Source: Polytrichum commune | Lineage: Eukaryota; Streptophyta; Polytrichopsida; Polytrichales; Polytrichaceae | Direction of reading: 5' to 3' | NCBI GenBank assembly: GCA_950295325.1 | Contig: OX485807.1 | Location: 2,978,501-3,042,500, forward strand | Length of the DNA: 64,000 bases | Shown: positions 679 to 42,342 of the stretch, piece after piece | Position numbering within the stretch: the stretch's first letter is position 1 | How the letters are laid out: every line of letters starts with the position of its first letter | The notes under the pieces: generated by a model | Seen by the model: only the letters and a program-made list of their open reading frames with translations | What the model was told of the DNA's origin: nothing | The model's database searches: none | Made by a program: the position numbers and the translations under genes

Positions 679-3600
679 ATGCCGAAGCCTACACGTGTGC
701 ATCTAGCAATGCTTATAGTGTTTTTGGAATCCTCTCTAAGTCCCCTTGATCGCATAGAGAAACTCCTAGCACATCCTGGAGAGCATGCCGACACGATACA
801 ACTACATACATCGCAGTGCAAGTTTCTGGTTCGCAAGCTCTTCAAGATCAAGGAGTTTTTTTTGAACACCCGGTTTTTTGATTTCTGGGAAGTGGACCTG
901 ATCCCCGACAACTTGAATAATGCCATGGATCAGATGCACTCTGTATTGGAGAGAGGCGAGGATCTTGTTGAAGTGTGCTGTATCAAGGATGCTTCGTGGC
1001 TGAGTATAGGAGCTGCATTTATAGATATCAAAGAAGAAATCACCGACATTCTTCTTGAGTTACAGACTTGGGTTGGGATGGTCATTGTTGGCATCGCTCA
1101 AACCAGGGGTATCGTTGGAGATCAAGTAAGTGAGCTTGAACTTTTGCGAGAGGCAGAGGAAGAATATGAGAGTTTGTTGGAAACGTTTCGTGAAAGCAAT
1201 AGCGAGCTTGACGAGGCAGCTCTCGAGGATAAGAAGAATTTTTTGGAGAAGCTGCAAAAAGTGCAAGAACTTTGCTTAGGTAATGGTCTGTTTCATACCG
1301 ATGACTGCCTTCTTGCAGTCTACATGTCATTTCGATTGGAAAGTGGAAACTTCCACCTAGATGATTCTGATGTCATCAAGGCGCTCAAAAAGTACGAGAT
1401 AAACAAGCCAATTGGAAGTGGAAGTTTTGGCACAGTGGTGGAAGTGACATGGTTAGATTCTCTGTGTGCGCTGAAAATCAGTGATGCGGGTACTGCGGAA
1501 GGCACTCGTCTGCAGAGTCTTCATCATCCAAACATTATTCAAATTTTTTATCATTGGGAGGCACCAGGCGAAGATGACCATACACATATGCAATCCTACA
1601 TGCTGATGGAGCTGATGTCTATGGATCTCGCACAATTAATCATCGCAGAGAAGACGAAGAAGCAATCGATGGAAGTTCTAACCACGTCGGAGGAGCAAAC
1701 TTCGACAATGCCGTTTCAGTTGAATGTGGCGGTTGATATTATGCTGCAGGTCGCAAAAGCAATGAGTCATTTACATGACAATAAGGTGATTCACAGGGAC
1801 CTCAAGCCAAGCAACATCCTTGTAAACCCATGCAATTATGGTGTGAAAGAAACTGTGTTTGCTCCTCGGCTATGGAATATAAAAATTGCTGATTTTGGTC
1901 TGTGCAAGAGGCATGACGATAGCAACTCATCACAAACGTTGACAAAAGGTACCCCTACGTATGCGGCACCTGAAATGTTTTGTCGCGATGGACTTAGTAG
2001 TAGTACAGTCAAGATCGATCCCAAAGCAGCTGATGTGTGGAGTTTTGGAATGACCTCGTCAGAGATTCTTTCTGGAAAGGTGCCATTTGAAAATGAGTCT
2101 GGAGATGATTTACATGCAAAAATTATACGGGATCCGACATTAAGACCAGCCCTACCAAGCACTTGTCCTCAATATCTGCGATTTGTGCTTTCCAGTTGCT
2201 GGAAGCAAGAACCCCAGGAGCGGCCCAGTTTCCGTGATATTTTAAGGATGCTCAGATATGCCAGACTGATAAGCTTAGGTATGATACAATTGGAGAATTG
2301 TTGCAGTGTTTTTTCTTATACAACAAGGAGCGGTTGCAATATCCGAATGTCAACTCATGATGAAGTCCCTCCATATCCTTCTGCAAGACCTCCAAAGAAA
2401 AGGTCCCTCTCTCAAAGGCTCATTGCCAAGATATTGACTTCCCAAGGTCGCATGGGTGGAGGTGAGTATTCACCTTCAATTTGTTCTTTTATGTTCACCT
2501 AAGTCAGTGCCAACATGTTTGCATAATGTTAGCAACAAGGACTTTAAGGTAAATATGTCTTAAGTGGACACTTCTATGAGATTGAAGCCTTCTTGTGGGA
2601 GATCTTCAACAGTCAAAATTTCGAGGTACTTGCAAATTTGTGTGGAGGGAAAAGTCTACTACCAATTCAGAGTTTGTGGAAATTTGCTATGAATTTCTAA
2701 ACACAAGATACTTCTGCACCCTAGATTAGCCACAGGTAACCCCTTGGAAAACGCTTTTGTCACTTAAAGTATGCTCCTACCACCCTAGACATCCACACCA
2801 ATTGGAATGAACAGTTTACCGAGATGGAGACAATGAAAACAATGGGCACAAATTATTTCTTAATCCTTGGGTACATTAATTGCAGGTAATTTGAAGAAGT
2901 TCAACAACCAGAAAGTATCCTCCATTCCCCAACTTGTGCAAAACCTCAAGAGTGTTTTGGTCGAGGAATGGAAACCGGCCGTCCAAGAAATACGGTGGCT
3001 GGCAAAAAAGTCTTATAACCATCCTCACCTTGTAGCAGCTGGTGCCATACCACATTTATTGTCATCGCTTTCAACCAACGCCTCAGAAGTCCAGGAAGCT
3101 GTGTTGCAGTCTTTGAACTCCCTCCTAAATATGAAGGAGATTGTTAACATCAATCTCAAAAAAACATTCCATTATTTGGTGAAGGTGCTCAAGTATGGAA
3201 ACAATGGGTCACTAGAACTTGCTTTCAATATTATCTCCAAAATTCTGGACAGTCAAAGCTCTGAGGATCTCGACTTTTATATGGTTCTTGATAAATCTGG
3301 GGTTATTGCCACCTTCAAGGAATTAAGCATCTATGGATCCCCTTTACAACAGCGGTTTGCAAACATCACTCTGCCTTGGTTCCCCTCATTTGAAGTCCTA
3401 GATAATCTATATGCCAGGAAAATGATCTCCAGATGGGGACTTGGTGACTTTACGTCTGACTCGAATGATATGACTGGCGATGACTATTCAAGGCATGCTA
3501 CTATCAATGTAGGTTCTACTTATACATTGGTTCAAGCAATGAGGAACGTACGAGATCGGGGTGGATTTGTCTCCGATGGTCTTGAACAAGTTTTTTCGGA

Positions 3601-3724
3601 ACCCTGCATGTGGGAAGATTTTGGGTGTGATTGGAAACGTCTTCCCCCACCTTCAAATTTGAACTTTAACGGGATGCCGCTCGACGAATGTTTCAAAATT
3701 TTCAAATCCTTGATACATGCCTAG
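679..3724 (+). CDS. Helical-bundle / Ser-Thr protein kinase / ARM-repeat protein, two exons
   Basis: Coding exons 679-2461 and 2886-3724 join in frame (phase 1, GGT across the junction) to give 873 residues. The intron has donor G/GTGAGT and acceptor TTGCAG. Residues 1-235 are a helical domain without catalytic motifs, resembling the HeLo/DUF1221-type N-terminus of some plant kinases by layout. The kinase spans about 240-535: glycine loop GSGSFG (246-251), Lys266, HRDLKPSN (372), DFG (405), APE (430), and DVWSFG. All catalytic residues are present, so an active Ser/Thr kinase is expected. Residues after about 600 form several ARM/HEAT-like helices, probably a partner-binding platform. No signal peptide is seen. 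The start is the first ATG after the upstream MITE and fits the paralogue at 12-16 kb, which has a similar number of residues before the first conserved block. The substrate and pathway are unknown; signalling or defence is inference. Confidence 0.85.
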
Positions 3725-6005
3725 CCCAGATTTCATGAACCAAATGTAACTTGTCATTTTGGGGGACTGGGATATTTTCTTGCTATTGTGTTGAGGTGCT
3801 TGAACAAAACCAGTAAAATCATCTTAAAGATGAAGTGATGTCTACTACTACTGTTATGCATGGACTGCTAATCTCTTGCAGATTTTTGCAAAGGATTGCA
3901 CGGGACCTGGGATATGTCAATGTCTTATTGATGGATATCATTCCAGCATTGGGACATGCACCGGCCAGAGTGCATTTTCACATGTAAGTAACTCCCGTTC
4001 ACTCCTAGATTGTGGTTAAGTTGGCCAACATTTGCTCATTTTCAGAATCTATTCCAGATTAGGTTTTATCACATTTATAGTGTACAACAAGTATTTCAAT
4101 GATCCCAACACGGTGAAGATCACTCGAGCAATATTTAGTAATTTAATTGTTCAGACTTGCCAAGATCAATGGCAAGAAAATTTAAGAAAATTAGGATATA
4201 GGATGCCCTGACAGGCTATGTCACTGAGGCAGTGATAGTGATACTCATAGCTTCCCATGGAATTGACTCGTATGTAATAATCTCGTGTTATTTTTTAACT
4301 AGCATTCAGTGTGATTTGTCAAACAAGATTCAATGGCAACCATAGATCCTTGCCTTGGATTTAACAATGGATTGGACATGTGCTTTTGCTGCATGCTTGT
4401 TTGATCATTTTCTTAAGATGTTATTACTCCTCTGGTGGTTGTTTACTTCAACTTCAGACAATTGGAGTTGAGGACAACAACATAAAGAAATAATGTCAAT
4501 ATACATCTTGAATAGTATGTAAGGTTTTGGACTATACATACTATTTGGGTTCTCTTCCCAAAGATTGGAGTAGAAGTAAGATGTGAGGCTTCCACTGTCT
4601 GAAGATTATGACATATTTGCATGGTTATCAGATTGTGCAGAATCTATTTATATTCTTAAGTTGCTGGAATGTCCTATATACCTTCCCTCATTCTGGTCTG
4701 ATGGGGCTTGTACCAAGATTTTGTAGACATTTTTTTTTGTGTGGTATGTTTGCCATTTTTCAAATGGATTACTGTAGGAGTGAGGCTAGTCCATCACTCA
4801 AGTCACAATACATTTATTTATTTATTTAAATGACAGCATTTCATAAGGCTCAACTGAGAATTCCAAGAATTTCATCACAAGTTCAAAAGTGACTTGAAAC
4901 CAAGCAACATTCTATTTAAATAGGAGACAACATGACATTGCATTTATCTTGTTCTTACATCAAAGGTTTAATTTCCAAAATTTCATCCTCGTGGCTCCAA
5001 GGTTTTGCAAGTTTTCATTATGTTAGTTTGTGATTGATGATTGATGAACAAGGGTCACTGCTACGGTATGCTAAACTCTTTTTGGGCCTTTTTGACAAAT
5101 TTACTAAGTTAAAGTTCTGGACATTCTTTCTTTTGTTTTCAACCATTAAGATTTTGTCAAAATCCAATTTGCCATGTGTATTTTGGCAGAATGTTTGCTG
5201 TATTGAATACACTCTAGATCAAAATCAAAGTAGTCAAGTAGGGTGTGTTACTCAATCATCAGACCTGATATCCAAACAAAGTTTAGAATAAATTTTGATG
5301 GAACATCTCACATGTGGGAGATGGGGTAATCACCTGGATGGATGCAAAGTGCAATTTTTGACAACCTTTCCTTTGAATGTTGGATCCATATTCAACGGAA
5401 ATAGCTCACATGTGATGGGAAGGTGCAGGTGATTTAAGACAATGAATTGTGGGATCCTGACATACTTAAAGAGGTATGTAATCAGATCTTGGGTCTTCCT
5501 TGTCGGACCAATCTGCCATTGCAGCACTGTTATGATATCCAACAAAAACTAATTTTTAACTGAACCACTTGAGCTGAACTCCAGAATTTCAGGTTTGAAT
5601 GAGAATGCTGACATACAGCAAATTAAATGGTCGTTTTCTATCGAATGAGAAACTTTGTAGGTCATGTTTAGTGTGGTACATTGCAATTAGATTGATATTT
5701 TAAGGTCACATAAACAGAACAATCTTGCAAGTTTATTTGCTAATATGAGCATCACAGGAGTAACATCTCCCATTGTGACCCATTATGGTCACTTAAAACT
5801 AAGGGTATATTGGACTCAAAGCATATGTTGCATGGTCCCCAAAAAATGAAAATCAAGTGGAGGCATAAGATCATCCCCATCATGAAGCACACTGTGACGT
5901 AAACAAGTGAGTGAAGGGTCCAACATAGGTAAGGTCTTAGATTTGCCAATCGATGAAAAGATATAAGGAACAGATATGTAAGACACGAGAAGCAAGTGTG
6001 GCATG
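3725..6005 (+). other. Downstream region of the kinase-ARM gene with one spliced-looking exon
   Basis: No open gene is present. A stretch at 3882-3983 is bounded by a good acceptor (TCTTGCAG) and a strong donor (GTAAGT). One frame is fully open and reads like protein (it includes QRIARDLGYVNVLL), followed by another acceptor-like TTTTCAG near 4045. It may be a 3' untranslated exon, an alternative C-terminus, or a remnant. The rest, to 6005, is AT-rich with no recognisable coding or repeat structure. Confidence 0.3.
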
Positions 6006-6234
6006 CTACACCATTTATGATATTTAGTGTCACTTATTATTTGGAGTTACACTGTGCTCTAACATTTTATTTTTAATGTAATTTTTTACCTAGTAAAGAT
6101 GTTGATGCTATATAGTTGTCCAAACAACCGATTTGACATTTGTTGGCAAAAAAAAAATGAGATTCAATAGTCAAAATTTATGGCACAATGTAACTTTAAA
6201 TAGTAAGTGACACTAAATATTGTAAATGGTGTAG
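6006..6234. repeat. Short MITE (family B) with long terminal inverted repeats
   Basis: A 229-bp element whose ends are inverted repeats of about 50 bp. Both ends read CTACACCATTTA followed by ATATTTAGTGTCACTTA with few mismatches. The interior is AT-rich and non-coding. Relatives are at about 28,201-28,412 and 45,919-46,134. I could not define the target duplication with confidence. Confidence 0.7.
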
Positions 6235-7249
6235 TTCTAGTCAAGCAAAGCTAGGATATGAGCATGAGCAACTTTCAACACTATTCATACATAGATTTGA
6301 GAACTACAAACCTTTGAGGTTGGATTTGTTGATGCCTTAGGAAGAAAACATATGTATGAAGGGATGGTAGCACCTAGCATGGGCGAGGGTTTTCATTTTT
6401 GGAAATATATGCATGTGTGTTTGGGGCAGTAGCAAAGTAGGCAAGGTCTAGAATTTTCGAGATTGGTTGAATTCTAAGGTTGGCCTTATAGTCCATAAAT
6501 TGTTTGAAAGTGCAAGGGTATGATCTAGGAAAGAAGCCAAAAACCATCACTTGTCACCAACCAATCGTTTTCGGCTCTCCTTCCAAGTCAGACCTAAGCC
6601 TCTCAAAGTTCATTTCATTGCATCAATTCAATTGGCTCAATGTTCTTGTTATTATAATTTTGGAAATGGTGCATCTTACATGAGCTCATGGTAGAACTTG
6701 AAATATTGATTTTCAGGCACTAAGGTGTATATTGAGGGTAGCAACCACATAGCAATGAGGGGTTCAATTTAGTTTGAAGGGGCTTTATAAAGGGACTAAC
6801 ATGTTCAATACAGGCGAGTGGGAGGGAGAAAACAAACAACATGCCACCACTTGAGTTTGTCCCTTCCATGTGATACTCATGCCCCCTATAGAATAATTTG
6901 ACACCAAAGCCCTTTCTACAACTTGCCACTAAAACTCCATTATTTGCAAGACGGTCTACAAACATTGGATTTGGAAAGGGTGGCCTCCTATTTGAACAAA
7001 GAATGGGTGATAGTATTTTCTTTTTTATTGGAAAAGAAATGTGCATATTTCAAGTCAGCAATTGTGTACCCAAGGCCCAAAACTTTCAAGGTCACTCAAA
7101 TTTCAAGGCCCCTTGATGCTAATGGCAAGGGGTATAGCATGGGTGACAACAAATTAAAGCATTTGCCAACACTAGCCAATTGTCTTATGTTTTCCTTCCC
7201 TGACATGCCTCAACCCCTCAGCCTACTTTCACCCCTTGCCCCAACTTGA
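6235..7249. other. Intergenic AT-rich DNA
   Basis: Open frames of about 70-108 codons exist on both strands between 6720 and 7249, but they overlap one another in antisense, lack domain signatures and run into the repeat array. I see no gene here. Confidence 0.5.
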
Positions 7250-8170
7250 CCATTGTTTTACCAGTATTGTTTTGTAGGTATTTTGGCTTCACCATTTTGG
7301 GGCCAAGGTGGGGTTTGAGGGTGAGATTTGAGGTTGGGCAGGAAGGGCAAATGGTATGGCTGTTGGTGGCCATATCATTGTCTTTCCTCCCAATGTTGGA
7401 AATCTCTTTTGGCATTGCCAACAAGGTTTTGTTGGGATGTGGGCTTTATCTTTATGAACCCCAATGTGAGTGTAAGGGTGAAATTTATTTTGGGAGGGAA
7501 GGCAACATGGCATGGTCGGTACTGGCCATGGCAATCTTCATTTCCATTTAACAACAAAAAATTCCTCCAATGTTGCCAACATTGTTTTGTTGGGATGTGG
7601 GCCTTATTTTTTGAGCCCAAAGGCGAGTGTGAAGGTGAAATCTATAGTTAAGATGGAAGGAAAAGTGTTGAAAAATTTCTCTTGCATTGCCAACTATATT
7701 TTGTTGGGATGCATACCTTTACTTCTTTGAGCCCAAGGGGGGATGTGAGGCTCAAAATTTGGTGTTGGGAGGGAAGACAAAATGGCATGGTTGGTACTGG
7801 CCATGTCATTTTTCCTACCCTCCCAATACTGGAAATTTTCTCCAACATGATTGGAGAAAAAATTTATTGGGATGTGGGCCTTCCATTTTTTTTTAGCCCA
7901 AAGGGGAGTGTGAAGGTGAAACTTGGTTGAGAGGGAAGGAAAAATGGCATGGTTGATACCAGCCATGGCATCTTGTCTTCCCTCCCAACGTTGGAATTTC
8001 CTCCAAGACTACCAACATTGTTTTGTTGGGATATTGGCCTAACCCTTATGGTCCCAAAGGGAAGTTTGGACGGGAGATTTGGCATGGTTGTTGGCAATTG
8101 TAACATTTCTCCTTCCATTCCAACATTGGAAATTTCCCCTAGCACATTTGCCACAGTTTTGTTGAGAAAT
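7250..8170. repeat. Imperfect tandem array, ~160-bp unit with an internal hairpin
   Basis: The phrase TTTGTTGGGATGTGGGC, or a close variant, recurs at about 7424, 7583, 7700, 7863, 8020 and 8157, with a weaker form near 7262. Spacing is mostly 158-163 bp, with one short unit of about 117 bp. Most units contain a foldback: an arm starting GGGAGGGAAG and ending ATGGCATGG, a spacer of about 10 bases, then the complementary arm ending TTCCCTCCC. Open frames on both strands (such as one at 7328-7651) follow the repeat and are not genes. Confidence 0.75.
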
Positions 8171-11100
8171 TTGTATTTGACTATTTATCTCCCTCTTTTT
8201 TATTTAAAAATTCATTAAAAAAATTCATTGTGATAAAATTTGTGAAATTATGTTACAAAGTGCAAAGCTTTTTGTAAACACACAAAATAAACATAAACAT
8301 TTAACCTTGTAGGCACATACACGTACCTTGTTTCTAAAAATACATATATTAAAGTCAATATGTGAAATATGCATGCATAGTATATGGTTTTTGTGACAAG
8401 GGCTATTTGGGCCATTTGCTAGTAATTTGAAATGATTCATTTAATGGTCTAAATTTTAAAAAATAAATTTCAATAAAGGCTAAATCAATGTTAAAATATT
8501 AGTTCCTATAATCAAGCTTCATGAGGGTTCTCAAATAGACATTGATTATAAAAAAATGCTACTATTAAACACAACAAACTACCTGTTGCATGAATAATTT
8601 TGTAAAATCAAGCATTGATTCCAGTCATTGAGAGGTTGCACCCAATCACAACAAGTTGATGAGGTGTCATATATCAACTGTGATAAACCTCAAACGTATT
8701 TATTTGCAAGACCTTCATGTTGTCAACCCCTAAATGCTCCAATTCACGCATAGATATGCAAAAAAAAAAAAAAAAAAAAAAAAAACCATATGCTGAATAT
8801 CACTATCAAAAAAAAATGTAGCATGTTATATTCTTACAACCTACTCATAAAGCTCTCATACATAGTAATATGTAGATTTGTTTTGACATAATATTAGTAA
8901 GGAGCATAAAATTCTATTTATGTTAAAACTTTGAGGAAACTACTGTAGCTCGTTTGAAATTCAATGTAGAAATGCCCTTAGAAGTTGGAAATCAATTTGT
9001 GTGTACCATGAGGAGTCATTTGGTCATTGCCAAATTGTATTTTACCTTTATTTCTGCAACTATCGTGTTAGATTAACTCCCATAATAGTTTGGAGTTTGC
9101 ACGAGAAAAAAACTGACCTATCCATGTATTCTTTGGTTGAAACATGTCATAATATGCTCTCTCAATACTATGAGATTTCAAGGGTGCAATCCATCATCGA
9201 AATAGAAAAAAGTCAACCACCTAAAATTTTTGGATAATGGAAGTATATGGTGTATCATGTTGCGCAGTTATGTTTTTTACATACATTCACATATCCTAGT
9301 ACACCTCATAATTTAGCCAACCCATTAGTGTGTGACCTCATATCTTAGGCAATAGATATGGAAACCCAATTTATACCTTACATGTATGTGAATGCAACTT
9401 CTTCATATAATGCGTTATATGTTTTTCATGTATGGTCCACAATTTATGTTGTATGGGCGCCTCTTGTATTATAGACATCAATGAGGCTTATTTGATTTGC
9501 ATTAGGATTCACTTGACTATTGATACATCCTATAAACATGTACTAATCATTTTGTTGGTGCAATAAATATTGAACCATATTTATATATATATTGTCTATT
9601 TATTTGTACATGATCATGAGCTCTTCCAAAATCTGATAGTTGAATTGGCATGAGTCTAGCTTTGAGTCCTTAGTTTGTAATACAATTTCCTAGTTGCCAT
9701 AAATTATATGTATTACAAAGCTTAAGCATGCGATCCATGGTGGTTTTGACGACAAGGTTTGTCATAGGCATGTTTGAGCATTACAAAATAAGCTCCCTTA
9801 CAAGTTTGGGTTCAACATTTGTGAGGCCTCTAAAGGTATTTCATGCTAGGAAGATGACTTGAAAATCTAAGCATACTCTTATAAGACTAAGACATTGATA
9901 GTGTATGTTGCCATCGTATGACACAAATGTGTCAACCTCCATAATATCATCTATAATAATTGACTTTTACATTGCACGCTGATTATAATAACATATCTTC
10001 CATGTTAGTTCAACCAGTCCCGGGAAAAATTTACTTGCCCTAAAAAGACATTTATATTGATAAATTAAATATTCACCACATAAATAAAAATCCCCCAAAA
10101 CATGAGCAAGCTCATATGACCTTCCTCATGAAATAGCATTCCTCAATTCCAATCCATCATATTCAACGTTCTGAGAGGTTAAGGTGTTTGGCATACAATG
10201 CGGTAGCAATATGAACTGATAAAAATTAAAAACAAAAATTATTCCCAAGTAGAACAAAAAAGACCACGTGTATTGCTAGTTTTTTTTTTTTTTAAAAAAA
10301 ACTTCCTTGAATTTTTGAAATAAATACAAATTTTTGAAGTGAAAATCATGTCATCAACTCAAACCATTAGTTTTTTTTTTTAAGGGGTGGGGATGATGTC
10401 CACATGGCAAACATTCTCATAATCAATATGTACTTATTGTGCAAGATTTCAGGGTGTTGGTTTTAGCACCCTCAACCAGAGGTGTTCAATAAGCACTTGA
10501 CCCCATGCGCATGATGAGTTGCACAAATGGATGCCCCTGTGTGACCACAATGGGTCGTGGAGTATTTCAATTCTGAAATTTTGTACAAACTTGAGATATT
10601 TTGAGGTGCATGGCAATAATTGACATTAAAATTGGACCATACCAAAGTTAAATGACGCTCTCAAAAATGTGAAGTGTGGATATTGGAATAGGATTGGTGC
10701 TCTCAAAAGTTTTGACAAGGAGTTCATTTGCATACATGATGTCAAACACCTGTGCATACTTCACCAAAAGTGGGGGTTCCAGCACCACTTCATGCTCCTT
10801 AACCCTTAAAGGACAATGCTGCCCCACGGGCTTGGTATTATTTTGGGAGAATCTTGTTCAAAACTTCTACTCCATTGCACCAAATGGGGTTTTTAGAATG
10901 CCAAATCGAGCACCTTAGCAAGATCTATACTTCTTTAGAATAGAGCCTATGTCAATTAATTGGTTAATCATGCTTAAAATGAATTTTAAAAGATATTTTG
11001 GGTGTGGTATCGGGAAAGCATATGTCCTTTAAGGGTTAAACATTATGGATTGTGGAAAATGGGGCAAAACTCCCTACCAAACATGAGTTCCCTAGAGATA

Positions 11101-11194
11101 ACTCTAACACTGTGAGAGAAATGTGGAAAATATAAATGTGTTATACTTGCTTCATCCTCGAAAAGGTCAGATACCATACCATCAACATGTTTAC
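8171..11194. other. Intergenic AT-rich DNA
   Basis: No gene or recognised mobile element. It contains a poly-A tract at 8761-8785 and several T or A homopolymers (10,280-10,300; 10,371-10,382). Short open frames at 9001-9237 and 10,676-10,918 have no domain signature. Confidence 0.5.
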
Positions 11195-11703
11195 CTATGT
11201 ATTATAACTCTCCAAGAGCTCAAAATGACAGCTCCAATAACAGCCTCGATCAACACCCAGCCTGCCATCACCATAAACCAGAGTCTGCAAACAGAGAAAT
11301 CACAACAGATTGAAGAGTATGCGCATCCACATCTGATCAAAATAGATTTCAGTAAAGCATAGACACATTCTAACTGGTAAATCCTAGAACAATTTCCATG
11401 ATCCACATACCTACTCCTTTCCCACGCCATATCCTAGCTGAATGCCAGGGACAAAATTCGTGATCCGGCAGCCTTGCATTCACAGACTAAAATGCGCTGC
11501 AGCAGGAACAGATCGATTTCACGCATTCCATAGTCTTGAACCAGAAAACAACATTGCTGTCAGAAGATCTGCATAGTAAAGATCTGGTGACGGACAACAA
11601 TTTCACGAGGCTTGAGATGAAGTCGCCTGCAATTGATGCCAACGAAATGCCAACAAGGTAAGTGGGCCTAAAATGGACACTTTCAGCTCTGCACCCACGT
11701 CTC
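11195..11703 (-). other. Candidate 3' exons encoding membrane segments (possible extension of the minus-strand kinase gene)
   Basis: On the minus strand, an acceptor (GTCCTAG) opens a frame at 11,703 that reads to about 11,530 and encodes a hydrophobic stretch (PTYLVGISLASIAG). A second exon at 11,284-11,195 lies between a strong acceptor (TTTCTCTGTTTGCAG) and a donor (ATAG/GTAAAC). It encodes another hydrophobic stretch (WFMVMAGWVLIEAVIGAV). The kinase gene upstream has a possible donor CA/GTAGGT at 12,328 overlapping its stop codon, and its phase matches the 11,703 acceptor. I could not link the two membrane exons to each other in frame. The opposite strand is also open across part of this region, so the assignment is tentative. 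Confidence 0.3.
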
Positions 11704-12324
11704 CTAGGACACTAAACACCTGATTAGTACAAGATTAGCAAGTGCGATTTGAGGACATAGCCATTCTCCTCAGAGTTCACTTTTATAAGAGTGAAGATTC
11801 CCTTTCTTCTTGAATGATCATATAGGTTCCCCCCAAGTATGTTGACTAGTGAACTTAGAATAGTTACCAAATTTGAGCACATAGTCCAATATCTTTCAAA
11901 CATACGTCTTTTTGGCGTCTGTCCTTAGATCCACACCTCACCACACACCACTCAAAATGTAGGTGTCCAATTAAGATAATTATCCGAAGTAAGCCAACTT
12001 GTCTTGGCACATTTCTGCAAGTGTGCCCATTTATTTCTGCAAGGAGAATTTTGCAGAGCTGCCTTTAAATCCTTAACGAATTTCCAAGCATTTGCATGAT
12101 AGAAGAAAGATCGTGAACCTATTAAACCCTAAACCATGAAGTCTTGTTTGGAATGAACTCGTCCAGGAAGAAATTAGATTGCGCACCAGAGGCTTGATGA
12201 TGTCGAGTTTATTGAGAATGTCTCAAACTTGAGCCAAGGAATGTCTTGACCCGCCCACCTATTGTTGGCCAAGCACTAGTAGCCGCAGGGACATTACAAC
12301 AAGATGCTTCATGCTTCAGTTCAC

Positions 12325-15300
12325 CTACTGAAGATAATCAAGTACTCTAGCACCCATTGCTAAAAACTCTAGAGCTGTTACACACCTTAATTTTTCTTGC
12401 AGTGTCCCTGTTTTGACCTTATCGATAAGTCTAGCAATTATTTGAGGATTGTCTAGAGTATCAGCAACGACTTCTGCTACCTCAAAACAACTAATGTCCC
12501 AGAGTACTTTGACAGCCACGACTCGTTCGTCAAGATCTCCATCCTTGAACATTTCAACAACATTCCGGATATTCTGTTTCTGTATAATTGCATCACCGAA
12601 TCTTTTGATGACCTGAATTGCAGCAGCTGTGATGATATTGTCTGGAGACCCCGGAAGCACTTTGGCAACAACCAAAGAAGCAAGGGTTTCCACTGCAAAT
12701 TGTTCTCCCATTTTTGTGCCAATCTCGAGTACACTTATCAAATGCTCCTCCAACATTTTTGTGTCCTCCAAATGGTTTGCATGCGCGTCTTCCCACACAA
12801 TCACCATGTCATACACTTTTGATAGACATTTTGTTCGTATACCAACACTCCCTTGTGCTCCCAACATTCCATCCTTGACCAATTTGGCTACGGGAGGGAC
12901 AACGTCTACATTTGGAATATGTTCGGATTGTAAAGGATGAGCACCATCACGAGCTTCAATTTTGTGCCTCATTTTATCTTCATCCATGACTATACGAGAA
13001 ATAGTGAACATCGCGTTGACTTTTCCTTCACGTGATCCACTTTGTGCCAGAGTCCAAAGGGTGGGAACAGTAGCCCATTCACAAATGGCTTCTGTATATT
13101 CATTCAATCCTGGTAGTAATGCCAAAATTGCAGCCACCTTCTCTTGCACTCTTGGACTTCCACTATTCAGAGATTGGAACAGGGGCTCAAAACAATCCTT
13201 TGGCAAGGTCAGTAATAGGTCTTTATTGTGAATGACTATATTTTCCAGGCAGCCCACGACAAGCTCTTGGATCTCCATAGAAGTATATTGTCTGAGAAGC
13301 ACTGGTAAAAGGGGTATGACACCTGCTTCTGCAATATGGACATGGTTTCGCACATCTTCAGTCAACGTGTGAAGTTTTTTGACAGCCGCTTGCCATATGT
13401 CTATTTGAATGCTGTTGAGTTGTTCCAAAACTTGGTCAACAACACTTCTAGGACTCTCTGCAATAGATTTTCCTGCAATCCGAATAAATTTTAATATGTC
13501 AAACAACGCAATAAGATTCACAAGGCCGAAATTGAAATTTCAAAGGTCTATACTTCCAAAGTTTTTCTACTACAGATTATTGGATGATGGTCATATTTGT
13601 ATATTGAATAAGGTCAACGAGCTTTTGTACTTCAAATTCCAAGTCGTGTATCAATAGGCTGCATGTATCAAAGTTTGACAAAAGAGACCTGTTTCACACA
13701 AGCATACCTCTCATCCATCCACAATGAAAACATGCCCACTATAGATTTGTCCCAATTTCATCCCCATCTCATCCCGCAGTATACTAATCAAGGTGTTTGA
13801 AGCTAACTTTGCTGTCAAACCGGCTACAAAAGAAAATCTCAGGGTTAAATTCGTTGGATGGATACGAGATACTCTCATGACCAATAATTCCATCTTGCCT
13901 CAATTTTTTAAACCAAAAAAACCCAATTGACATTGACTGCAAAAATTATGAAATAATCAAGGGTTAGAATACGTACTTGGCCTGCTCCACATCTTTGCGA
14001 ACCTTCTATGGATTTTCTTGTAAATTGGTGGTGAATCTCTGGGAATGACTTCACTAGGCAACGCCTTGACTTGATTTTCTCGTGTCGTATAACAAAAGAC
14101 ACTGGAACAAGTTTCCAGCTTCAAGATTCCCAAACTGATCAGTTTGGAATATCGCAACATCCTCAAAAGATCATGAAATGTTGGCCGATCTTTCGGATCT
14201 ACTTCCCAGCAACTGCTTAGGCAAAAGCGGAGATATTCCGGACACTCATTCGGAAGAGTGGGTCTCAATTGTGGGTTGCTTAGAATCCTTTTTTGAAGAC
14301 CAACATTAGGCTCATCTCTGAATGGCACTTCACCAGTAAGGATGACGGATGCCGTAACACCAAAACTCCAAACATCCGCTGCCTTGGGATAAGTCTGAAT
14401 CCGGCCTCCCGTCTGAGAGAAGAGTTCGGGTGCAGTATATTTTGTGGTACCTTTATTCGGAGTCTGTGATGCCCAACTCAAGTCGTGCCACTTGCACGAA
14501 CCAAAATCTGCCAATTTTACGTGCAAGTAGCCGTGACGAAAATCTGGCAGATTGTCACTTACTTTTGCAACAAGAACGTTGCATGGCTTCAGGTCTCGAT
14601 GGGTCATCTTGTTGTCGTGCAACTGGCACATCGCTTTCGTTATTTGAAGCATTGTGTCAATAGCCACGTGCAGAGGAAATGGCATCGTCGAGCGTTGGGC
14701 AGAGCTCGATGACGGAGACGATAAATTTCGGTTCACTTGTGCATCAATTAATTTCTGAAGGTCGTTGGGAATGTATTCCATCAAGATGTGAGACTGCACT
14801 CCGTGATCGGACTCAGAATCATGCGACGCGACCCAATCTCGGTAGAATCGCACAATGTTAGGATGTTGAAAACGACTTAAACCTCTGACCTCCATAGCCC
14901 CCACGCTACCAACTTTCAACGCACATTTATAATTGAGCCATGTCACCTCGAACACCGACGCAAAACTCCCGCGTCCAATGAACCTCGTCGTCTTAAATTC
15001 AATTAGTTTTTTAGAGAAGACCGCATCTAAACTTTCTGCAACTCCGGCAGCAGGACGCAACTGAGATTGCAAATAGGCGACAAGGTAGCACTTGGTATCA
15101 TGCTCATGATCCTGTCGTGCACATTTCTTATGCTCGTTCTCCAACCTGTTGAATAGAACCATTTTATCTCTGGCTGCTGCATCATCCAAGTCACTTCCGC
15201 CCCGTAGAATATTCCTCATCCGCTCCTCGGACGTCCTTAATATTTCCAACTCCGTTATTTTGAATTCGCCGCGGCAGTTTCTACATACTGTAATGTTCAG

Positions 15301-15723
15301 CGCACTACCCCAAGTCTGCAACTCGTACAAGATGTCTATAACCTCTTGCCTAATCTCACCATGAGAGACTGCTGCTTGCAGCCAAGTGGACTCTTCACAA
15401 CAACAGCTCTCCACCAGAATTTCAGCTCTCTTTAACGTAATGTAAAGATGCTCAAACACTTCCCTCAAACTCTCGTCCACAAGAATCTTTTCACTGGGGA
15501 AATCATCACAGTATGTTTTTATGTAAAAAGCTTTTGCTTCATAAAGGAACCTGGCTAAATGCTGGCATTGTAACATATTTAACTGACTCCGATTCTCAGG
15601 TGATGGGACACCATTTAGTTCCTCACCTTCAAGTATTTTCGCAACAATCTCAACAGGTGATAGGGTAACCGCCAGCTGATTAATGAAGGCTGCTCGAGCA
15701 CATTGGTTGAACACATCCACCAT
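12325..15723 (-). CDS. Helical-bundle / Ser-Thr protein kinase / ARM-repeat protein, paralogue of the gene at 0.7-3.7 kb
   Basis: Exon 1 is 15,723-13,977 (donor A/GTACGT) and the ARM exon is 13,472-12,325 (acceptor GATTGCAG). Phases match (1 to 1), giving 964 residues. The helical domain spans residues 1-235 and shares Cys/Glu-rich helix motifs with the paralogue (ILVESCCCEESTWL; VEVCCIKDASWL there). The kinase has GRGSFA (250-255), Lys270, HRDLKPCN (375), DFG (406), APE (431) and DVWSFG, so all catalytic residues are in place. From about 583 on there are roughly 380 residues of ARM repeats, longer than the ~280 in the paralogue. The conserved splice position between kinase and ARM parts shows common descent. 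It is convergent with the first gene. The stop at 12,325 may be bypassed by an alternative donor (see the 11.2-11.7 kb entry). A signalling role is inferred; no partner is evident from neighbours. Confidence 0.85.
13708..13823 (-). other. Possible cassette exon with an in-frame stop inside the kinase-ARM intron
   Basis: Inside the intron of the minus-strand kinase gene, a 116-bp stretch lies between an acceptor (TTCTTTTGTAG) and a donor (GAG/GTATGC). It enters in the same reading phase as the kinase exon but reaches TGA at 13,713-13,711, and its length would also shift the ARM frame. If used, it would make a kinase without ARM repeats or trigger decay of the message. Confidence 0.3.
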
Positions 15724-36676: not shown

Positions 36677-39160
36677 TAAGGGGGGGCCGCACCAGTGGTT
36701 CCCAGGCCGGAAATGGTTCTGGGACCGGTGCTCAGGGGCTAACTTGTACCGCACCAGGGGGTGACATAACGGGCCGGGTAAGAGGCTGTCAGGCCCTTCT
36801 GGCATGTACTTCCTGCCGGAAAAATACTTCCAAACTGCTATATGCACTGCGTTCTCACCGTAGGCGAGAAGCAACGTTTTGACTGAGTCCTCGCCCGACC
36901 TGGATGACTCTGTGAGGCCGGAAATGAAATTCATCCGGAACCTCGGACCTCTCGCAGGGGAAGCCCGAAATGCCGGACAGGTTTTGGGGTTTGCTGAAGG
37001 TTGGAGAGGGGGCGTGCGCGGGATGTCTACGGTGCTCCGGAGGAGGAATCTGTCTCGGCGACACGATCAGGCCTGCACAAACACGGAGGTGAGCGTTTCC
37101 TTTGGGACTGATCATCGTTGTCCTGGGACTTGCGGCAGACACAGAAAACTCCAGACGCACTCCGAGCAAGGGGGGTGGGTGCCGCGCGTCGATGCTAGCC
37201 CGATTTCTGTTTGGTCTTTGCCGGTGGCTTGCAGGCAGATTGCCACCGCCGCACTGGCCTTCCCTGGTGCAGGCCACCGCGAAATGTACTGGGTCTCCGC
37301 CGTTGCTCTCGCGGCCTTGCCACAGCTATTTCGCGTCGCAGTGTGGAGGGCCCTATTCGTGGTTTCTTCCCGCTGTTTCGTTTCTTCTTGCGGCACATCT
37401 TCCTCGGTCCGCATAAAATGTGGCCGGCCGTTGTGTCTGCATTTCGCCAGTGTGTTTATTTTGTCTTTATTTGGGCTGTCTCTTCCGCACACCTGATGTT
37501 TGCCTCCGTTGCCCATTGGTCCCCCTCGTCGCTACATGTCTGCAATTTAATGCAGAATTCCCCACTCCGTATCGAATCCTGTCCACATGTGTTTGTGGCA
37601 GATAGTTGGGGTGCAAATTCAGGTGCCCAGGCAAACTGCCGCCACTGCAGGATTCCTGCGACCCTCCGGCCAGTTCCATGTGTGCCGTTTGGGTTATGGT
37701 GGCATGCCTTTGCGATTGGACACATCTTTGGCATAGCCCTCTGGGTGCAGTGTGGAGTAAACAACACCAAAATATTGATACCCCGGAGTGTGTGGGCACC
37801 AGCGGGTGGACTTGCCTGCACGAGGAGGCCAGCCATATCTGCCCAACATTCTCCCCGGCCATTCGCTGCCATTGCCTCCAATCCAGCAAACTCATCGCCT
37901 TGCTCGAGGTAAGCTCAATGACAATTATTGTGCACAATGTCCGGTTGCCAATACGAGGATGCAGATTGATGTCCCCGTTGTTTAAATTTGGCAAACATGC
38001 CACTGCGCATGCCAATGTTGCGGCGCAAATTCCCCCCCAGTGGACTGTTGCGCTTTAGGCTCTCCACCCCACTGTTCGGCATTGCGATCCAGTTCATGGC
38101 TGTGGTGCCGATTGGCCTGTCGCTTTCATGCGCATTTCCCCCCTTGTGGATTGCCAGTTGGGAGCTGGGTTCCGCCTGTGGGGCATTGAGTAGGGCAGTT
38201 TGTGGTTCGTCTCGAATTCCAGAGAGTGTTGAATTTTGTTGGAGACTGGTGCTTGTGTCCGCAACAATCTGGGTGGGTCGTCCGTGCACATGGAATTCTC
38301 CCAGCACACAGTCCCTGCCACTACTGCAGATTGGAACTCCTCGCAGTGTCGTCGACCACTCGCAGCGGGAATTAATATGCAGGGCCGTCCATACTGATTC
38401 GCCGTTCCCGGCGTCGACAACCAACATTGTTGACATCGCGAATAATTGCACTGCGAAACCAGGCAGAGCAATTCCGGTTTCGGAGTTTGGCATTGGCATG
38501 GGAGGCCACCATTGTTCGGTCTCACCATACAGCTGGCGCAACACTTTTCATTTGTCTGCATTACGTGACAATGCAGGTTTCAGGCCGTCGACACTCCTGT
38601 CATTCGATGGGGTGCCATTTGAATGCTTATGTGGGATGTGTCCTGTGGTAATTGACATAAGTGTGTTGCGTGTTTTGCAGGGTGCACCTGTGAGGTGTGC
38701 ATGCACTTGCCATATTCAACCAGCTCGCCCTGTTTGACCTGGGGAGCGAACACAGGGGATCGTCGTATCGCAACTGCGGAGAGTTCATCTCCCAGCCTCA
38801 ATTCGCACATGTGCGCCTGCATTCCTCACTGCCCGCTCAGTGCAGTCGGCCTATTTTTGAGGTTCGTTGTTTCGGTGCGGATTGAGCGCCTGTTCACTTC
38901 ATGTCTGCTCCTGCATCCTGCGTCTTGACTCGCCTCTGCTCTCTGCAGCATTTTGAAATATGTTGTCTGCCTGTTTGCGTCTTCATGCAGTCCACGTGAA
39001 TGGTTGCTGGGAAGCGTCTGGACAAAAGTCACCTCCTATTCGTGCCTACTGGGCCAGTTCCAGGATTGCTCCGCTGATACGCACGACTTTGTGCCTCCTT
39101 TTTTGCAGAGATTGGGGCCCTCATTTTTTCCTGTTCTTCGATTACATTCTTTGTTGAGTG

Positions 39161-40309
39161 ATGGAGGATATTGTGCATCTGGGGGAGACCTCTCAGTGTC
39201 CTTCATCCCAACGGCCCTTGGACGTGGACAACGAGTATGGATCGTATTGTGCTGATGTGAGAATTCCGACGTTTTCAACGCCTTCGGACACAAGGGGGAG
39301 TTTGCATGGCGGGCACGGATCGCATTCAGCGAGGTCTTCATCGGGTCCATCGCAGTCGCAGACTACCGCCTCACCCAAGGTCCGGGGACCCAATTGGACA
39401 GAGGCAGAAATGCTTGTCTTGATTGCGCAGAAACGTATTGAGTGGGATGGGAGACACAATTGCAATCAACCATCGCTTGCAAAGTTTGTGTATGGAACCA
39501 CCGCATGGAAATTGGTCCTCGCTGGTTGCATGAGTGTGGTGGGATTCAGGGCTAGGGATACCGACCAGATAACCAATAAGTGGGATGGATTAATAAAGGA
39601 TTACAAGAAACTAAAGGAGTACATAGACGGTACAGGGTCGGCCAATTGGTGGGGATTGAGTAGGGAGGAGAAGAAACAATTGTCAAAGACAAGGAAGATG
39701 TCGTTGGAGTTTAGCGAGTCCATGTACATTGAGATGGAAGGTTTTGTTGGCAAGAGGCAGATTTTTGGGCGAGCGACGGACGTGGTTGATTCCGACCGTG
39801 TCTTGCCACAGGCTGCAAGGAGGGCCTCTCGTTCCACTCCCGCACCTCGCGATCAAAGTTTGAGTGGAGCGGCAAACCCAGTGGGAGGTGGCACGACCAC
39901 ATCCGACTCCCCCTCCGGTGGCACACCTGGGGATGACACACCGGGCTCGACGGGTCACAAAAGGAAAGCCACGGGTACGGACAATTTAGTGGACTTTGTG
40001 AAGGACTTTAATTTCGAGTATCTTTCGCGTGTTGAAGCACAAGACAAGGACAAACAAACATGGAGGAGCGACATGTCGGCATTCGACAAGGCCAGAGAAG
40101 AGAGACTTGCACTCAAAGACACAACACTCACAAACATGGATCAAAAGCTTTATGAGTTGGAGGTCGAACGGACAAAGAATTTGGGTAACATGACTAGCGC
40201 CTTGCTCATGTTGGCAACCTCCATGGATGCTCTCACAAGGTATTGTGTCCTACCCTACTCTCCTCCATTTGGGTGCACCTTCAAGTTACTCCCCTTCTTG
40301 AATGGCTAG
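39161..40309 (+). CDS. Myb/SANT-like DNA-binding protein of the PIF/Harbinger element
   Basis: 382 residues from the ATG at 39,161. Residues about 78-165 form a trihelix/SANT-like domain starting RGPNWTEAEMLVLIAQK, with ITNKWDGLIKDYKKLKEY in its third helix region. A low-complexity Gly/Ser/Thr linker precedes a KRK basic patch and a coiled-coil-like C-terminal helix (LYELEVERTKNL). In PIF/Harbinger elements this protein binds the terminal repeats and helps bring the transposase into the nucleus; I infer the same here. The frame is intact. Its last 29 bases overlap the 3' end of the opposing transposase gene. The final ~20 residues may lie beyond an unused splice donor near 40,240. Confidence 0.75.
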   Translation: MEDIVHLGETSQCPSSQRPLDVDNEYGSYCADVRIPTFSTPSDTRGSLHGGHGSHSARSSSGPSQSQTTASPKVRGPNWTEAEMLVLIAQKRIEWDGRHNCNQPSLAKFVYGTTAWKLVLAGCMSVVGFRARDTDQITNKWDGLIKDYKKLKEYIDGTGSANWWGLSREEKKQLSKTRKMSLEFSESMYIEMEGFVGKRQIFGRATDVVDSDRVLPQAARRASRSTPAPRDQSLSGAANPVGGGTTTSDSPSGGTPGDDTPGSTGHKRKATGTDNLVDFVKDFNFEYLSRVEAQDKDKQTWRSDMSAFDKAREERLALKDTTLTNMDQKLYELEVERTKNLGNMTSALLMLATSMDALTRYCVLPYSPPFGCTFKLLPFLNG

Positions 40310-42159
40310 ATGTGTTGTTCGCATTGTTAATACAAACTAGGTAATCCAATAGGTCCTCCCTCGCCATTTGGCCTTCTAGCAAAGCCCTCTCCTCGCTCAC
40401 AAGCCCCATTGGCCTGGGAGGCTGGAACACATCCTCTTCTTCTCCACGTGTGGAGATGTTGTCATCCATGGGTGGGAGATTGCAATCCACCAGGATTTGA
40501 TCCAGTGTGCGGTCCTTGCTTGCAAGGAGTATGTTGTGCAAGACACAACATACATGCACAATCGTAGGTAGAAAATCAAGTTTCAATGATGATTTCGTTC
40601 CAATTTCTTTGAACCGTGCTTTGAGTATGCCGAAGCCCCTCTCGACACTCATCCGTGTCGAGGAGTGCTTCCGGTTGAACCACGCCTCCTCCCTTGTCAA
40701 TGGCAATCCCATGGGTCCCAATTTGAATGGTGTTATGCACCAACTCAGTAGAGGGTACCCACGGTTTGCCACAATGTATGGAGGGAATGCAAGACCTGCA
40801 GGCCATGTCGAAGGGTCGTCGTGGAAGCCACCCATTATTCCTTCCTCCACCTTGCGGTATAGCTCGGAGCTTTTGAAATGCGCACTGTCGTGTAATGATC
40901 TTGGGGGTCCGGTGTTGATCGATGTAAAGTAGCACTTGCTATCAACAACACCTTGTAGCAAGATAGAGAACGACTTGTTTCGGTTGCGGTGGTCTGCCGC
41001 CACAATAGTGTTGGATGGCGCCGCAACATAGATGTGGGAGCCGTCAATAGCTCCAATACAGTTGGGAAACCTTTGCTTCAACTGAAAGCCTGCTGCGGTC
41101 CGGATCAGCCTCCTGCCAATTGGGCCACGCAATCAAGTGTCCAAAATGTAGGCTTATGGCATTGCACACTTGACGCAATATCTCATGCACGGTGGACTTG
41201 CCGAGAGCGGCCTTGTCGGCCACCAATGGTATGGACACACCATGCATGAGTTTGAACAGTGTCACTACCACTTTCTTCTCTACTCCAATGGGTTGTCTCC
41301 AATGTGTGCTTTGACCCTGTATGTAAGGTCGGAGGTCGTGCACCAACCTGTCGAAAGTCCTCCTCCTCATGCGTAAAATATCATAGAACATGTCGGGCGT
41401 GTAGATGTTGAAGAGGTACTCCTCAAACCAGCACGTCGACCTAGGCTTCACATACCATTTTGCGTCCATGACGCCAATGTGCCAGGCAATGAGATCGGAT
41501 AACTGCTTTACGTGTAGGAACTCATGTGCGTCGTCATCGTCCTCACACAATAACAATGCGACTGTTCGTGCCATAGACACATCGTCCCCGCCACCCCTCC
41601 TCAACTTCTTTCTGTGTGCAATGTGTGCTTCGGTTGCATCCATCGATGCCATGTACATGGTCACCATGACGACGCACATGTCAGTGCATGCAGCCACTAG
41701 GCGAACAGCAGAGGCTAGATCGGTTGGGCACATTGAATTTGGTGTCGATGTAATGTGCAGGGGTATGCTAGCTGGACCGACGCCTCCAGGCTCGGGCACA
41801 ATGGGTGGAGCAGGGGAGGGATTCCGTGGTGCAGACCGCACACACTCCGGCAGCTTCTCCGGCAGAGCACACGTTGCAGGCACATCGGAGGAGGCTGGAA
41901 GGCGACGATCAGGAGCATCGACATTCGGAAGACAGGGAGAGGGAGGTTCAAGCTCGGAGGAGGATTGAGGCGGCACCGCCTCTTGGGCTCTTGCAACCTT
42001 GAAGAGCAGACAAAGGAATTCAGAGTTCATGTCAATGTTTATAGCAGTGTTTAATGTTAGTGCAGGCTTCCATTCCCAAGCACGGCAGTGCTGCTCAATG
42101 TTGGGCATGTGTCGGGAGTGGCCGCATACATGCGCCAACAATTCAATGAGGATGCTCAT
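40281..42159 (-). pseudogene. PIF/Harbinger DDE transposase with a frameshift
   Basis: Two minus-strand frames overlap at 41,132-41,044. The upstream frame (42,159 on) has a long Pro/Ser-rich leader and then the Harbinger N-terminal region (DILRMRRRTFDRLVHDL; an HTH near ALGKSTVHEILRQVCNAI). The downstream frame holds the catalytic DDE_4 domain: IDGSH (first Asp), LHDSAHF (second Asp) and SVERGFGILKARF (Glu). Homology switches from one frame to the other just after HLIAWP near 41,110, a +1 shift with no room for an intron. The simplest reading is a one-base indel that inactivates the gene; an assembly error or frameshift translation are alternatives. The usual GDxGYPL motif reads ANRGYPL here. 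Confidence 0.75.
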
Positions 42160-42342
42160 GGTTTAGGAGTATCAGGACACATTTCATTGAATACCAGATT
42201 ATGCATAAACCTGAACACAATGAAAGGATTTCAGTTCTTTTGGAAGACATGTACAAGAATTGTACAATAATTCAAGGGCAGAATGCAAGATGTTGGCCGA
42301 GTTTTGATATATGTGTATGGCAAGTCAATTTTCGTTGGTAGA

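Follow-up and report, generated by a model that had tools for sequence, protein, structure and literature searches.

The 64,000-nucleotide window analysed here (C5:2978501-3042500 of the 407.8 Mb Polytrichum commune assembly) holds two convergent genes, A on the forward and B on the reverse strand, whose frames lie 8.6 kb apart. Gene models predicted from the sequence confirm both as paralogues of one three-part layout, consisting of about 230 helical residues, a kinase domain, a phase-1 intron and ARM repeats. On the domain comparisons, A and B form a sister lineage of plant MLKL and do not belong to MLKL proper, because neither gives a match to the DUF1221 family and neither carries pseudokinase motifs. 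We propose that both encode cytosolic kinase-fusion-type receptors built on an MLKL-like chassis, a reading that we would accept about as readily as reject.

Gene models and domain layout of the convergent pair

Gene A runs from an ATG at 679 to a stop at 3722-3724 and encodes 873 residues, and gene B from an ATG at 15723 to a stop at 12327-12325 with 964 residues, or 959 if an alternative acceptor (first exon base 13457) is used (Table 1). The first exons measure 1783 nt in A and 1747 nt in B, and since each leaves one base over, the predicted intron is of phase 1 in both genes. Without splicing, the frames would end after 607 (A) and 588 (B) codons. Moreover, the first methionine of exon 2 does not occur before residue 82 (A) or 65 (B), within the ARM region in both cases, which makes it unlikely that the ARM part is a separate gene in either. 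The two proteins are 42% identical over the helical part plus kinase and 32% identical over the HeLo-like region. The initial annotation had read this pair as convergent paralogues with helical, kinase and ARM parts and a common phase-1 splice site between the last two; both points are upheld, the former by the two gene models, the Pfam Pkinase matches and the match between the two ARM parts, and the latter by the single base left over from each exon 1.

The ARM domain of B is clear (Pfam Arm at 24.2 bits, with a cut-off of 20.6), and Pfam ARM_PUB falls just under its cut-off at 8.7e-7. Its closest relative in the genome is the gene at C3:8434617 (31% over 155 residues), which carries a U-box plus ARM repeats. 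Taken alone, the corresponding part of A is weak (Pfam Arm 0.025, below cut-off), and it is the BLASTP comparison that ties 97 residues of it to the ARM of B. One further genome match to exon 2 of A extends to residue 152 of 278; beyond about residue 150, neither Pfam nor the genome search gave a match.

Table 1. Positions of the predicted parts of genes A and B within the window, with the evidence for each.
Feature	Position	Strand	Evidence
Gene A exon 1: helical N-terminal domain, brace, kinase	679..2461	+	Open frame; Pfam Pkinase; donor GAG|GTGAGT, phase 1
Gene A putative HeLo-like region, modelled with four long helices (residues 6-144) and brace helices (152-222)	694..1344	+	Profile homology to AtMLKL2/3 and to the DUF1221 region of L021; low-confidence AlphaFold2 model, pLDDT 53
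Gene A kinase (residues 239-523) with complete catalytic motifs	1393..2247	+	Pfam 9.8e-43; AtMLKL3 6ka4 3.2e-31
Gene A predicted GT-AG intron, phase 1	2462..2885	+	Frames and splice consensus
Gene A exon 2: repeats of ARM type, matched to the ARM of B at about 2918-3202, then an unassigned tail	2886..3724	+	BLASTP 4e-9 to B over 97 residues; Pfam below cut-off
Gene B exon 1: helical N-terminal domain, brace, kinase	13977..15723	-	Open frame; Pfam Pkinase 8.4e-35
Gene B HeLo-like region plus brace, putative	15058..15723	-	32% identical to that of A; first row of profiles A5/A6, which reach AtMLKL2
Gene B kinase (residues 244-521) with complete catalytic motifs	14161..14994	-	Pfam; AtMLKL3 6ka4 1.2e-24
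Gene B predicted intron, phase 1	13473..13976	-	Donor A|GTACGT; acceptor TTGCAG|GAAA
Gene B exon 2: ARM repeats, most similar in the genome to those of a U-box (PUB-ARM) gene	12325..13472	-	Pfam Arm 3.3e-5; designed ARM proteins 1.3e-10; C3:8434617 6.7e-11

Kinship of the kinase and helical regions to plant MLKL

Among solved structures, the best match to the kinase of A, of B and of the related locus L005 (1.2e-33) is AtMLKL3 (6ka4), AtMLKL2 (6lba) being the next best for A and L005 and coming sixth for B, which places the kinases of A and B by sequence as kin of MLKL. Both domains retain their motifs, being GSGSFG246, K266, HRD372-374, DFG405-407, APE430-432 and DVWSFG in A, and GRGSFA250, K270, HRD375-377, DFG406-408, APE431-433 and DVWSFG in B. 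The αC glutamate also aligns (E274 in A, E278 in B), so that the lysine, this glutamate, HRD, DFG and APE are all kept and the pattern is not that of a pseudokinase. From these motifs we infer kinase competence for A and B. A comparison with the plant MLKLs AtMLKL2 and AtMLKL3 points to the same order of a probable helical bundle, brace and kinase; however, the AtMLKLs are pseudokinases (HGE replaces HRD and GFG replaces DFG in AtMLKL3 aligned to A), whereas A and B keep all motifs, give no match to Pfam DUF1221 and carry ARM repeats.

For the N-terminal region, no Pfam HeLo-type family, including PF06760 (DUF1221), matched A or B at an expectation value (E) of up to 0.1. Among 14 N-terminal regions of the family described below, DUF1221 matched three at E up to 1, the best at 0.0057. 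An RPW8-type bundle was set aside, Pfam RPW8 matching a single one of these regions, at 0.1. Kinship is detected by profiles, of which A2 comprises 14 members, A5 comprises 19 with no annotated DUF1221 protein among them, and A6 is A5 with the locus L021 added. Profile A5 reaches AtMLKL2 (6lba) at 5.6e-4, spanning bundle and brace, and AtMLKL3 (6ka4) at 0.057, and with A6 the same structures take ranks 1 and 2 (3e-4 and 4.6e-3). L021 (C1:75395500-75401500) is the only locus found over the Pfam DUF1221 cut-off of 25 (27.4 and 26.3 bits in two scans), was also reached independently by the N-terminus of the related locus L001 (2.8e-4), and encodes a pseudokinase in which HRDLK reads HRDLC and DFG reads HFS. 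Aligned to L021 by hhalign, A5 scores 1.9e-13 and A plus B alone 1e-8. Also, a QLN..QC..L motif is common to B, L021 and AtMLKL3. These comparisons suggest that the N-terminal region of A and B is likely homologous to the plant MLKL bundle plus brace, and the kinship to plant MLKL/DUF1221 kinases proposed in the initial annotation thus gains support from both the kinase and the N-terminal profiles. Such a related lineage may work in the manner of MLKL or in that of a kinase fusion protein (KFP).

A common chassis with differing C-terminal modules

To find related loci in this genome, DUF1221 and the N-terminal regions of A, B, L001 and L018 served as queries, and matches at E up to 1e-3 were counted. 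These numbered 15 (A), 16 (B), 18 (L018), 22 (L001) and 1 (DUF1221), and their union, counted by hand as a lower bound, comprises at least 33 distinct loci, with tandem clusters on C4 and C5. A, B and 27 others were examined, making 29; those left out are C5:4613401, C4:3455824, C4:58770369 and C6:8201227. The kinases of the related loci span intact to degenerate by their motifs, the degenerate ones having ADMG for ADFG (L006, L007, L019), YKD for HRD (L008), ADFD (L012) or TNFL (L011).

The C-terminal module varies between clades, a pattern that would fit a sensor-like family. Most loci were viewed to about 6 kb, and a module was taken as fused in the relatives on the basis of same-strand proximity. 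ARM repeats occur in two of the 29 loci, A and B themselves, and jacalin in nine (L014, L016, L017, L020, L022, L023, L024, L026 and L027), confirmed by Pfam in all three of the jacalin loci tested. Six loci (L005-L009 and L019, at C5:4.54-4.70 Mb) carry an uncharacterised module of about 200 residues, for which Pfam gave no match in two copies and the best solved structure reached only 0.93. A PP2 module is present in L003 (4.7e-19), and weak candidate modules under the Pfam cut-offs are seen in two further loci, hydrolase-like in L001 and HSP70-like in L012. The ARM repeats that the initial annotation described for A and B are thus but one of the modules that this chassis carries, which cannot be seen in the window itself.

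In a tree of 19 rows (support given as bootstrap / SH-like approximate likelihood ratio test), A and B form a clade (99/97) next to L001 and L004, the four being grouped at 89/95. The rows with the uncharacterised module form one clade (100/100), and the jacalin rows another (99/99) that includes L018, where jacalin was not found. L012 and L021 sit on long branches, and their positions are uncertain. Each module appears, from this tree, to have been gained once and then kept on a common chassis.

A shared phase of the kinase-module junction is claimed for A and B only, since a phase-1 junction throughout the family was rejected: 15 of 22 kinase frames are without a strong consensus donor near their end. 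In the other seven the donor is of phase 1 in six and of phase 2 in one (L012); for L016 and L017, and for one of the two sites of L018, it falls within the kinase. When the rules are relaxed, phase-1 sites also appear in L010 and L023, and weak sites in phases 0, 1 and 2 in the C5 cluster.

With regard to rates in recent duplicates, in trimmed frames the ratio of nonsynonymous to synonymous changes (pN/pS) exceeds 1 in 8 of 10 pairs for the uncharacterised module, 6 of 6 for jacalin and 3 of 9 for the chassis, which hints that modules may evolve more quickly than the chassis. Before trimming, ratios reached as high as 4, and the trimmed counts are weaker. A and B are too diverged for this comparison.

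Some loci of the family deserve a separate description. L002 (C1:16.58 Mb) and L004 (C1:15.18 Mb) are near-identical and have same-strand receptor-kinase-like fragments downstream, being either a tandem kinase or a neighbour. L003 (C3:1.41 Mb) is probably a broken gene: its HeLo-kinase pieces are spread across several frames, a stop interrupts the match to the N-terminal region, and a PP2 lectin frame follows. Also, C5:4542568 and C5:4613401 score identically in two of the searches and probably reflect a segmental duplication of very recent date, of the L008 type.

Candidate receptor function and rival explanations

As cytosolic receptors, A and B would use the C-terminal module as sensor or bait, in this case an ARM surface related to PUB-ARM ligases. 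Binding of a target to the module would change the kinase, which would phosphorylate itself or a partner; the HeLo bundle, once freed, would oligomerise and disturb the membrane, and the outcome would be local cell death or immune signalling. The wider proposal, that seed-free plants hold a non-NLR class of intracellular receptors in which a kinase-competent MLKL-type HeLo-kinase chassis carries, clade by clade, exchangeable and fast-evolving sensor modules, among them ARM, jacalin, PP2 and an unnamed domain, is advanced tentatively, as possible and somewhat doubtful.

Several known systems resemble this layout (papers are cited from the available excerpts of their text). Wheat Pm13 is described as MLKL_NTD plus a kinase with all key residues (PMC10951266), thus sharing with A and B a HeLo-type N-terminus and an active-type kinase; it differs in that the available excerpt describes no third domain and in being a genetically proven resistance protein of a cereal. 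A kinase-competent protein of the MLKL type, which the initial annotation had put forward in combination with repeats, is therefore not new in itself. Cereal KFPs such as Sr62, RWT4 and Pm4 are intracellular receptors that combine a kinase with variable extra domains and are called "specifically found in cereals" in the excerpt (PMC12830362). A and B likewise would join an intact-looking kinase to other domains by predicted splicing, but their chassis is that of a seed-free plant and has an MLKL-like N-terminus. NLRs with integrated domains, for which the fused or effector-targeted domains include ARM and jacalin (PMC4759884), and the Pkn-NLRs of non-flowering plants (PMC11218826) have a similar combination of executor, switch and variable module; however, A and B have no NB-ARC or LRR match in Pfam. 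Membership of A and B among the NLRs was rejected, the four exons giving no NB-ARC match at E up to 0.1. PUB-ARM E3 ligases share ARM repeats of one type, the closest genome relative of the ARM of B being a PUB-ARM gene, and differ by their U-box, for which Pfam gave no match in A or B.

No description of the HeLo-kinase-ARM order was found in the literature searched, in agreement with the suggestion that it is little described. Plant MLKLs are described as a seed-plant family in the available text of PMC9950082, and NLRtracker defines MLKL by PF06760 according to that of PMC8559963, a definition that A and B fall outside and that may explain why their family is little described. The assignment to a seed-free host, also made from the DNA alone, agrees with dynein heavy-chain families matching at eight loci in the genome (13 and 18 matches in two scans, at the same places). 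Flowering plants are not known to have dynein heavy chains, and the cycads and Ginkgo, whose sperm are motile, possess genomes far larger than this one, which leaves a seed-free plant as the host.

Several results weigh against the receptor reading. With profile A2, a designed protein (0.063) came ahead of 6ka4 (0.15) and 6lba (0.33), and under A5 the designed helical protein 2jua (1.7e-4) scored better than 6lba, which calls for caution about helical composition in the MLKL profile matches. The AlphaFold2 models are of low confidence, both for the N-terminal region of A aligned to B only (predicted local distance difference test, pLDDT, 53; predicted template modelling score 0.45) and for the helical plus kinase part of B (pLDDT 34). 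With this poor model of A, Foldseek placed the MLKL executioner domain 6zz1 on top at E 0.54 and had such domains at ranks 1, 3, 16 and 20 of 201, all at 0.54 or worse and none of the 201 at 0.001 or below, and in the VIA comparison designed four-helix bundles came first (Z 13.6) with no MLKL in 50 rows. Because the structure models are too poor, the HeLo claim is drawn from the profiles only. In the kinase, the spacing from lysine to glutamate is 8 residues in A and B as against 13 in L018, and this shortened αC region may impair activity. The ARM of A is partial and short. Moreover, nine of the 29 loci (L002, L004, L010, L011, L015, L018, L021, L025 and L028) have no module found within about 6 kb, although a missing module is not proof of absence because most loci are cut at that distance. 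Regarding rates, one of 16 module pairs is individually significant (0.023), the pairs not being independent, and the module-chassis difference of two pooled pairs (p = 0.012) comes from pairs picked post hoc with the highest ratios of their sets. A firm claim of diversifying selection was set aside, given the weaker trimmed counts and the later choice of the pooled pairs.

Three other explanations would account for the pair without a receptor of this kind. A and B could be ordinary signalling or cytoskeletal kinases on an ARM scaffold, like the Fused-type TIO/RUNKEL, with a helical part that dimerises or docks the kinase and no immune role. Among Fused-type kinases the pairing of a kinase with ARM repeats is well established, and ULK-type kinases do match A, at 1.8e-17 and weaker; AtMLKLs have also been linked to microtubules (PMC9950082, available excerpt). 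However, MLKL structures match A far better than ULK does (3.2e-31 versus 1.8e-17), the HeLo-like part is MLKL-related by its profiles, and sister clades that swap the C-terminal module and form tandem arrays would be unlike a housekeeping kinase, so that we regard this explanation as rather unlikely. It is unlikely too that A and B are decoys or regulators whose kinase-ARM platform titrates PUB-ARM partners such as receptor kinases, with a HeLo-like part that is no longer lytic. PUB ARM domains bind kinases, in keeping with such a role, and the kinship of the ARM of B to a PUB-ARM gene points the same way, but the catalytic motifs intact in both genes would be needless for a pure decoy.

The pair, and A especially, might instead be decaying or mis-modelled, the ARM exon being a neighbouring remnant. 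The short ARM of A with its unmatched tail would fit this, as would the broken state of other family loci, for example L003 with its stop and its kinase in pieces. We consider it very improbable, since exon 1 stays open for more than 580 codons with conserved motifs in both genes, the phase-1 junction and the start of the ARM are the same in the two paralogues, and no methionine precedes the ARM homology.

If the receptor reading of A and B is true, sensing, switching and killing can share one MLKL-type polypeptide, in parallel to integrated-domain NLRs and cereal KFPs. If MLKL-like kinase fusions have expanded in a plant without seeds, this would inform on the ways in which non-NLR receptors arose in plants, and as single-protein systems such fusions would make module, kinase and HeLo executor separable for study. 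Also, the pseudokinase of L021 beside active-type relatives in one genome would make the loss of MLKL kinase activity directly comparable.

Finally, other features of the window lie outside the two genes. Between A and B, at about 7300-8150, phrases like TTTTGTTGGGATGTGGGCC recur at intervals when inspected by eye. A Harbinger-like transposon occupies 39158-42162, with a DDE_Tnp_4 transposase frame at 40281-41132 on the reverse strand (PF13359, 1.7e-28); beside it lie a Myb/SANT-like frame just under cut-off (39158-40309, forward strand) and a further long frame at 41044-42162 on the reverse strand.

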